Origin: Alienimonas californiensis
GTDB taxonomy: Bacteria > Planctomycetota > Planctomycetia > Planctomycetales > Planctomycetaceae
Assembly (NCBI RefSeq): GCF_007743815.1
Contig: NZ_CP036265.1
Location: 4,905,823-4,969,822 of the forward strand
Direction: 5' to 3'
Length of the DNA: 64,000 nt
Position numbers and translations under genes: made by a program. Below, piece after piece: positions 54,487 through 56,385 of this stretch; position 1 is the stretch's first letter; every line of letters begins with the position of its first letter. Below the pieces are notes generated by a model. The model was not told the DNA's origin, did not search any database, and was given only the letters and a program-made list of their open reading frames with translations.

Positions 54487-56154
54487 TCAGTCCCACGAGG
54501 GCGGCAGCGTGCCCAGCCGCACTGCTTCGCCGCGAGCCGCGGCGGGGGTGTCCGGCGGGGGACGGCGGGCGGCGTCGCGTTCGGCGTCGGTCAGCACCCG
54601 TTCGATCAGCCCCGCCTGTTCCAGCCGGTCGAACGGGGAGTCCGGCGCCAGTTCGTGGTACCGCAGATCGAGCTTGCGGGCGGCGTCGCCGGTCACGCCG
54701 GCCTCCTGAAGCAGGCGCCGCTTCGTCACCCAGTCGAGTACGCCGAACAGCCGGTCCGGCTCGTCCGCCAACGCTTCCAACCCGTCCAGGGCGTCGCCCC
54801 AGCGCAGCACCAGATCCCACGCCGCCTCCGGCACGCCGGCGGGCTCAGCGGCGGCGACGGATTGCAGATGGTCGCGAACGGCGTTCAGACAGGTCCGCTG
54901 GATCTGTAACGCCGTCGCCCGGCCGCCGCCGACCAGGCGGACGGTCGCTGTCAGCGTCGAATCGGCGGCGAAGCGGTGCAGGGCGGCGATCGGCCGCCGC
55001 GGCGTCGGCGGCCTCCAGTCGGGGCGGGCCTCCAACAGATCGAGCATCAGGCAGGTCGTGCCGAGCTTGAGGTACTCCGCCGCCTCGCAGCGGTTCGAGT
55101 CGCCGACGTTTACAGTGATCCGCTGCCGCCGTTCGCCCAGTTTCGCCCTCAGCGACGGGTCCATGAACTGGCCCATCGCCCGTTTGAACTGCGGGCCGGC
55201 GCTGAACGCTCCGCGGCAGCCGGGAAGATCGGAGATGCCCACGACGAACCGCAGGGCGGTCGCCTTGGCGGCGACGCGGAAGCGACCGCGGCGGTCCACC
55301 GCGCCAGCCCCGGCGAGCAGCGCCCGGCTGGCGAGGAACGGCATGAGGCGGGGGGCGTCCGCCAGCGGGCCGCGTCGCACCGCCGGCAGGCCCACGGCGG
55401 CGAGGGGGAGCAGCGCCGCCTGCAACACCGGCACGACGATCCGTTCGGCCCATGTCGGAGCGCCGAGGCTGACGGTCTCGTTCGGGCCGCCCGGCGGACG
55501 ACGAGCGGCCCGTCGGCGCTGTGCCGGCGTCTGCCACGGCCTGACGAACGGCCAGACGACAACCCAGACGAGTGCCAGTACGGCGGCAGCGGTCAAAAAA
55601 CCCGCCAGCGCCACGAACCAAAACAGCGTCGCAGCGCCGGCGAACGCCCGGCTCCAGTGTCTCCAGGCCTCCAATCGCTCCGCGGGGAGAACGATTTCGT
55701 AGTTCTCCTGCCCGCCGAACGAACGTTCGAGGGCGTCGCGGTCGACCTTCAGTAGCGTCGCGGATCCGCCGCATGAACCCGGAGGGAAGGCCGCCCGGAT
55801 CGCCTCGCCCAGCCGGCGGTCCTGCTCCCGGGAGGCGGCGAGGGCGGCCCGGGAACCACGGCACTCCGGCGTCGCCCCCTCGACCAAGCCGGCGTCCGGG
55901 GCGTTCTTGATCACTTCGAACCAGACCGCCCCGCCGGTCGGCAGGAAGCGGCCCCACTTGGCCATCGCCCCGCCCGGCATCCCCAGCGGGCCGTCCCGCC
56001 CCAGACGGGCGAGCAACCGGGCGAAGATCATCCGATTCGGAACCCGCGGCCCGCCCGGCTTGGCCGGGCAGTACCGGATCGCCAGCTCGGACTCCACGCC
56101 CGTCAGTCGGTCCAGGGGGCGGCGGACGTCGGCCGGGGAGGGCGGGGCGTTCAC
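54487..56154 (-). CDS. PafA/Dop-family ligase (Pup- or UBact-type) with membrane insertion
   Basis: Predicted to attach a Pup-like modifier to target lysines through its C-terminal Glu, using ATP. The 555 residues show the PafA pattern in order: GVESELAI (20s), GATPEC (93-98), QENYEIV (149-155), LMPFLASRALLAGAGAV (270-286), VGDSNRCEAAEYLKLGT (350-366), GGGRATALQIQR (409-420), DWVTKRRLL (474-482) and LDLRYHEL (495-502). GDSN and LDLxYH favour PafA over Dop. At the catalytic Asp position (LYLD in PafA) it has VWFE. Residues about 160-268 are an insertion with hydrophobic helices near 169-205 and 238-258, absent from the usual 450-residue enzymes. GTG start; the Pup-like gene ends 15 bases upstream. 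Confidence 0.83.
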   Translation of the reverse strand: MNAPPSPADVRRPLDRLTGVESELAIRYCPAKPGGPRVPNRMIFARLLARLGRDGPLGMPGGAMAKWGRFLPTGGAVWFEVIKNAPDAGLVEGATPECRGSRAALAASREQDRRLGEAIRAAFPPGSCGGSATLLKVDRDALERSFGGQENYEIVLPAERLEAWRHWSRAFAGAATLFWFVALAGFLTAAAVLALVWVVVWPFVRPWQTPAQRRRAARRPPGGPNETVSLGAPTWAERIVVPVLQAALLPLAAVGLPAVRRGPLADAPRLMPFLASRALLAGAGAVDRRGRFRVAAKATALRFVVGISDLPGCRGAFSAGPQFKRAMGQFMDPSLRAKLGERRQRITVNVGDSNRCEAAEYLKLGTTCLMLDLLEARPDWRPPTPRRPIAALHRFAADSTLTATVRLVGGGRATALQIQRTCLNAVRDHLQSVAAAEPAGVPEAAWDLVLRWGDALDGLEALADEPDRLFGVLDWVTKRRLLQEAGVTGDAARKLDLRYHELAPDSPFDRLEQAGLIERVLTDAERDAARRPPPDTPAAARGEAVRLGTLPPSWD

Positions 56155-56169
56155 GGGTTCGGCCCCGAC

Positions 56170-56373
56170 TTACTCACCCCCGTGACGCACCGCGGTCTGA
56201 CCGAGGTACTCGGCAGGACGATCGTCGGCGTCCGCGGCGGCGGCCCGGGCGATGCGGGCCAGGGCCCGCGCCACCGCCCGGTTCGGGGCGACGGCGCCGG
56301 ACCCCGCGCGGGTCGCGGGGGGCACCGAGACGGTCGACGGGGCGGGTCGGGGCGCGGCGGGGGCGGTCGGCAT
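56170..56373 (-). CDS. Putative Pup/UBact-like protein modifier ending in GGE
   Basis: A 67-residue protein from the ATG at 56373, with CAGGAG six bases upstream. The N-terminal half is Pro/Ala/Ser rich and likely disordered, and an Arg/Ala helix (NRAVARALARIARAAAADA) follows. The end is EYLGQTAVRHGGE. Prokaryotic ubiquitin-like proteins are short, mostly disordered and end GGE or GGQ; UBact proteins end in a similar Gly-Glu or Gly-Gln. This one already ends in Glu, so no deamidation would be needed. It has no lysine, Cys, Trp or Phe. The PafA-like ligase gene starts 15 bases downstream on the same strand. The assignment rests on its tail, length and neighbour. Confidence 0.65.
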   Translation of the reverse strand: MPTAPAAPRPAPSTVSVPPATRAGSGAVAPNRAVARALARIARAAAADADDRPAEYLGQTAVRHGGE

Positions 56374-56379
56374 CGGAGG

Positions 56380-56385
56380 CTCCTG
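56380..56385 (-). promoter_or_regulatory. Ribosome binding site of the Pup-like gene
   Basis: CAGGAG on the minus strand, six bases (CCTCCG) before the ATG at 56373. It supports the start of the 67-residue protein and that the frame is a real gene. Confidence 0.8.

Follow-up and report, generated by a model that had tools for sequence, protein, structure and literature searches.

A Pup-like tag beside a membrane-anchored Pup-ligase-superfamily enzyme in the planctomycete Alienimonas californiensis: a probable pupylation system without a proteasome

Pupylation is usually presented as a way of sending proteins to the proteasome. Outside the actinobacteria, UBact is known as a Pup-like small modifier of Gram-negative bacteria, and its loci carry proteasome genes. 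The gene pair analysed here, found in a 64,000-nucleotide stretch of A. californiensis DNA (contig NZ_CP036265.1; hereafter the window), shares with UBact, as generally described, a Pup-like modifier outside the actinobacteria, but is without the proteasome genes. A membrane-anchored type of ligase was first noted by Iyer, Burroughs and Aravind in 2008 (PMC2588565); that paper describes ligases of Rhodopirellula and Plesiocystis that have four transmembrane segments after strand 4 and no proteasome linkage, and that may act on membrane proteins. The window pair belongs to this membrane-anchored, proteasome-free type, which is widespread. The window pair resembles the Rhodopirellula and Plesiocystis pairs in its insertion after strand 4, its adjacent tag with a G[EQ] end and the lack of a linked proteasome, but differs in that its ligase is about 30 C-terminal residues short and that no conserved membrane-protein neighbour was found in 44 loci. 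To this description we add statistical evidence for the tag, the GGE end in all tags, the replacement of the catalytic Asp by Glu, the usual occurrence of one enzyme per genome, the lack of conserved neighbours, and further phyla. In the literature searched, the coverage of which is incomplete, we found neither these points nor a biochemical or experimental study of any member of the type, and the available portion of PMC2588565 holds no mention of Glu for Asp, of GGE-only tags or of a single enzyme per genome.

Both genes lie on the minus strand (Table 1), the tag frame running from 56373 to 56170 (MPTAP...DRPAEYLGQTAVRHGGE). The original prediction described a 67-residue, GGE-ending frame with a proper ribosome-binding site, set 15 bases ahead of a ligase gene that keeps QENYEIV, GDSN and LDLxYH-type motifs, and all of this was borne out, the last motif reading LDLRYHEL. 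Translation of the tag and the ligase is likely coupled, since the gap between them has no strong ribosome-binding site for the ligase. The G+C content by codon position at the two genes is typical of window genes. At 54487-54500 the ligase frame ends at SWD, about 30 residues before the end of the C-terminal extension of most relatives.

Table 1. Features of the tag and ligase locus (positions within the window)
Feature	Position	Strand	Remarks
AGGAG ribosome-binding site	56380..56384	-	six bases 5' of the tag ATG; from sequence
Pup-like tag gene	56170..56373	-	67 aa, ends HGGE; from sequence, profile and AlphaFold2
Tag-ligase gap	56155..56169	-	15 bases, tag TAA to ligase GTG
Pup-ligase-superfamily gene	54487..56154	-	555 aa, GTG start at 56154; PF03136
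GhExE motif (GVESE), residues 19-23	56086..56100	-	ATP/Mg-binding strand 1; motif as defined in PMC2588565
Glu80	55915..55917	-	aligns with the catalytic Asp64 of PafA; from alignment
QENY, residues 149-152	55699..55710	-	strand-4 [HQ]x[NH] motif; insertion begins directly after
Transmembrane insertion, residues ~158-261	55372..55683	-	from sequence, relatives' loci and AlphaFold2 model
GDSN, residues 351-354	55093..55104	-	GD[AS]N in PafA and Dop; from alignment

The case for the tag rests on its recurrence beside related ligases. Relatives were collected from whole genomes and GTDB contigs, and a tag was defined as a frame of 40-85 aa that ends in GG[EQ] and lies within 250 bp of the ligase start, GGQ being allowed equally with GGE. 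In 37 related loci with flanking sequence, a frame fitting this rule stands beside 34 of the 37 ligase genes and beside none of 202 other genes (Fisher p 4e-38, a value that overstates independence because the loci are related). When all 60 ligases having upstream sequence are considered, 48 have a candidate tag, which is doubtful in two cases, and the remaining 12, mostly from a divergent subclade, have none under the same rule. The 46 accepted tags all end in GGE, none in GGQ; conservation of this end, which the original prediction had named in advance as decisive, is thereby found across the related genomes. An alignment of 35 tags has a variable and probably disordered N-terminus followed by a conserved end, L......I..D....P..YL.E..VP.GGE, in which one Asp and the GGE are invariant. 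The window tag is recovered at 28 bits (E 1.7e-7, Z=1000) by a profile of the remaining tags, from which it had been left out. Judged from these sequence comparisons, the 67-residue frame is a real gene and not a chance one.

The predicted form of the tag is that of Pup. AlphaFold2 (mean pLDDT 79) gives the window tag a disordered N-terminus, one helix at residues 32-51, another at 53-59, and then an extended tail with the HGGE end, an arrangement like the two helices and tail that Iyer et al. predicted for Pup (PMC2588565). A length of 50-90 residues, two helices with an extended tail, and a G[EQ] end, the features of the Pup form, are all found in the alignment and the model. The original prediction had seen no clear similarity to Pup beyond the tail and disorder, and the profile searches agree: the Pup family models of Pfam and NCBIfam (PF05639 and TIGR03687) matched none of the 35 tags, a PDB search with the tags did not recover Pup chains, a comparison of tag and Pup by hhalign was not convincing (E 0.007, probability 6%), and HMMER returned nothing convincing either. 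The tag appears, on its model, to be Pup-like in form and below detection as Pup by sequence.

The ligase matches the Pup_ligase family PF03136 at 186.4 bits (E 1e-54, curated cut-off 25) and does not reach the equivalog models for PafA (TIGR03686, 123.6 bits against a cut-off of 551.3) or Dop (TIGR03688, 100 against 492.3), and by these curated cut-offs it classes as neither. GhExE, the strand-4 [HQ]x[NH], GD[AS]N and a glutamine-synthetase-type fold, the marks of the superfamily, are all present in the sequence and the AlphaFold2 model (pLDDT 87, pTM 0.88). When the model is compared with solved structures, the nearest fold is Dop (Z 47, rmsd 2.5 over 401 residues), the PafA-Pup complex scores Z 42, and the next family, YbdK/GCS2, only Z 21. 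The PafA-type fold, the loss of which would have told against the original prediction, is thus found in the model; of the "PafA-family ligase" proposed there, superfamily membership and the PafA/Dop fold stand, and PafA or Dop identity by cut-off does not. A feature overlooked by that prediction is a transmembrane insertion of about 110 residues directly after strand 4 (QENY), which is also present in the relatives examined. In the AlphaFold2 model it starts with 50 hydrophobic residues (158-207), which form either one helix or a hairpin, and continues through a loop of low confidence to a further helix (234-261); the transmembrane segments would number two to four.

Within the active site, GxExE, K136, D140, QEN, R277, R345, D352/N354, Q419 and DW..K are invariant or nearly so among 33 ligases, and these positions include the ATP, metal and phosphate motifs. 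In the window ligase Glu80 replaces the catalytic Asp64 of PafA, and Glu stands there in 32 of the 33 aligned members. One of the two patterns used to scan for relatives contained WFE and may have biased this sample toward Glu80; a residue-unbiased HMM search of the phylum found Glu in 21 of 21 transmembrane-type ligases, and soluble relatives with a readable strand keep Asp. The same position is Asn in the 4BJR construct, as seen in the alignment. At the positions that separate PafA from Dop (taken from PMC7947786), the Pro of TPE (TPEC) and the GL of the alpha-loop are Dop-like, and most others match neither.

Set against the actinobacterial Pup-PafA pair (4B0T, 4BJR), the window locus is alike in fold, active-site motifs, tag-ligase adjacency and a two-helix tag ending in GG[EQ]; it differs in the Glu for Asp64, the transmembrane insertion, the Dop-like Pro and alpha-loop, a tag undetectable as Pup by sequence, and a genome without Dop, proteasome or ARC. 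With the depupylase/deamidase Dop (4B0R, 5LRT) the enzyme shares the closest solved fold, the TPE motif and the alpha-loop GL, but it has the membrane insertion, Glu for the catalytic Asp and a Dop score below the cut-off. In both fold and profile it is slightly nearer to the hydrolase Dop than to PafA. It is nevertheless unlikely to be only a depupylase, because it is the sole enzyme of the superfamily in its genome.

No partner for degradation was found. The A. californiensis genome has no PF00227 match, meaning neither a 20S proteasome nor HslV, and lacks a credible Mpa/ARC. Here PF16450 has a single match, which scores at the cut-off (23 bits) in a frame that looks non-coding, and matches in two further genomes (G437 and G446) fall in short or antisense-looking frames; all were rejected as spurious. 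In the 26 genomes that carry the system, ARC is either missing or represented by spurious matches. Of the PF00227 matches in these relatives, those inspected by eye read as HslV, with HslU adjoining one of them, and were rejected as 20S proteasomes. The Pup/UBact-type module originally predicted is thus present as a Pup-like tag beside a superfamily ligase, of the proteasome-free type and not of the proteasome-linked Pup/UBact pathway. Clustering of neighbours by blastp revealed no recurrent gene in 44 loci that would suggest a third component. The gene downstream of the window ligase encodes an endonuclease/phosphatase-like protein (judged by eye) with membrane helices, which we do not count as part of the system because no such family recurs in these loci.

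The gene pair, the GGE end, the predicted fold, the active-site residues, the hydrophobic insertion and the missing proteasome are what the sequences themselves provide. Given the adjacency, the conserved GGE and the fold, a Pup-like tag by a superfamily ligase, the core pair of the original prediction, is upheld, and we consider it probable that the two genes form a membrane-anchored pupylation system; conjugation, a lysine target, membrane substrates and a non-degradative role are what we infer. In such a system the two C-terminal helices of the tag would fit into the groove of the ligase, and the ligase would phosphorylate the terminal Glu at its side-chain carboxylate with ATP; this Glu would then be joined to an amine, most likely a lysine, of nearby proteins. 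As Glu is encoded at the tag end, no deamidase would be needed. The insertion would anchor the enzyme at the cytoplasmic face of the membrane, and its substrates, for that reason, would probably be membrane proteins or proteins acting at the membrane. Since there is neither a proteasome nor the ARC ATPase, a proteasomal signal is improbable; the tag probably serves instead to regulate or sort proteins, or to direct them to another protease. Counting against pupylation are the missing Pup sequence match, the Glu for the catalytic Asp, the Dop-leaning fold and profile, the shortened C-terminus, the long branch of the window ligase, and the ligases without a tag. If pupylation is correct, a whole clade would carry a membrane-bound version with the tag's Glu ready made and without the proteasome, its ATPase and, mostly, any second enzyme, a natural test of the role of protein tagging that does not lead to degradation, and of a possible origin of both PafA and Dop in a single two-way enzyme.

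One enzyme per genome implies that tagging is either not reversed or is reversed by the same enzyme. The latter is a variant of the pupylation reading, in which a single bifunctional membrane enzyme attaches and removes the tag, and separate ligases and depupylases never arose in its clade. We hold this tentatively, as a possibility of some weight. Exactly one PF03136 gene is present in the 5.48-Mb single-contig genome of A. californiensis and in 23 of the 26 genomes with the system; the three exceptions are a genome with two strong matches and two genomes in which a pair of lower-scoring genes is added. In a tree of 51 enzymes all the transmembrane-type ligases form one clade of 42 (support 100/99) standing beside PafA+Dop (97/92), a sister relationship in a tree whose root is not fixed by an outside group. 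PafA-like and Dop-like positions are mixed in the enzyme, and Dop is its best structural match. Furthermore, single-copy planctomycete homologues have served as the outgroup to the PafA/Dop duplication, and a ligase ancestor with promiscuous Dop-like activity has been argued for (PMC7947786). However, the exchange of the catalytic Asp for Glu could reduce either activity of this putative two-way enzyme. The clade takes in planctomycetes, myxobacteria, acidobacteria, a spirochaete and a member of the Oligoflexales, and the Plesiocystis ligase (L056) falls in it with that of the window. Rather speculatively, it may be a third branch of Pup enzymes, neither PafA nor Dop, in which one membrane enzyme with Glu for Asp adds a GGE tag that is supplied ready-made and takes it off again. 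Planctomycetes, myxobacteria, acidobacteria and spirochaetes would then tag membrane proteins (or lipids) reversibly and without a proteasome.

The distribution of the system bears on whether it still works in A. californiensis. A match to the ligase profile is present in 32 of 392 sampled planctomycete genomes; the system is patchy rather than very rare in the phylum, a refinement of the rarity first proposed. Among 58 relatives, four have any PF03136 gene, and two of these four have the membrane type with a GGE tag. The one genome of the same genus has no PF03136 gene, and the system is also absent from most of the family. This absence, together with the truncated C-terminus and long branch of the window ligase, could be read as the mark of a non-working relic, which we regard as improbable: the active-site positions, the open frames, the tag end and the ribosome-binding site are all intact, the codon-position G+C is unremarkable, and the tag still matches its family profile.

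The window tag has no lysine, and 15 of the 46 tags have none in their last 50 residues, so chains of tags are unlikely in those species. The original prediction expected trypsin digestion to leave a GGE remnant on Lys; as trypsin cuts after Arg63 in AVR/HGGE, the window tag would instead leave HGGE, calculated as +380.144 Da; relatives with a VPHGGE tag end would leave a longer one. Such chain-free tags, a membrane-embedded ligase and the lack of a proteasome partner are also compatible with an acceptor that is a membrane aminolipid and not a protein lysine, the tag being lipid-anchored as Atg8 is in autophagy, but lysine amides or the terminal amide are the targets of those Pup enzymes that have been characterised (PMC7947786), and we judge a lipid acceptor very improbable. 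The remaining alternative, a chance frame beside a gamma-glutamyl ligase for small molecules, takes its plausibility from the presence of such enzymes in the wider superfamily (PMC2588565) and is refuted, as to the frame, by the adjacency counts, the GGE conservation and the profile match of the window tag, leaving it a negligible probability.

Some loci depart from the common pattern. A divergent planctomycete subclade (L060-L084 subset, e.g. L062, L066, L070) has ligases of about 615-720 aa, usually with HENY and not QENY, and often no recognisable adjacent tag. In Roseiconus nitratireducens (G445; C32, C97) both strong PF03136 matches are of membrane-anchored-type size. Two genomes with the membrane-anchored system also have two weaker PF03136 genes side by side, at G438:C394 and G452:C433, which are perhaps of a hybrid type like L010. 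The latter (G015 contig C172, 263-11160) is a different tagging locus with all genes on one strand. Two of its genes are for soluble PafA-like enzymes, and two paralogous small frames have a PGQ end; the others are a ThiF/E1-like protein, an AAA ATPase that weakly matches a proteasomal-ATPase OB model, and a weak match to JAB. It looks like a combination of Pup-type and ubiquitin-type parts in one operon.
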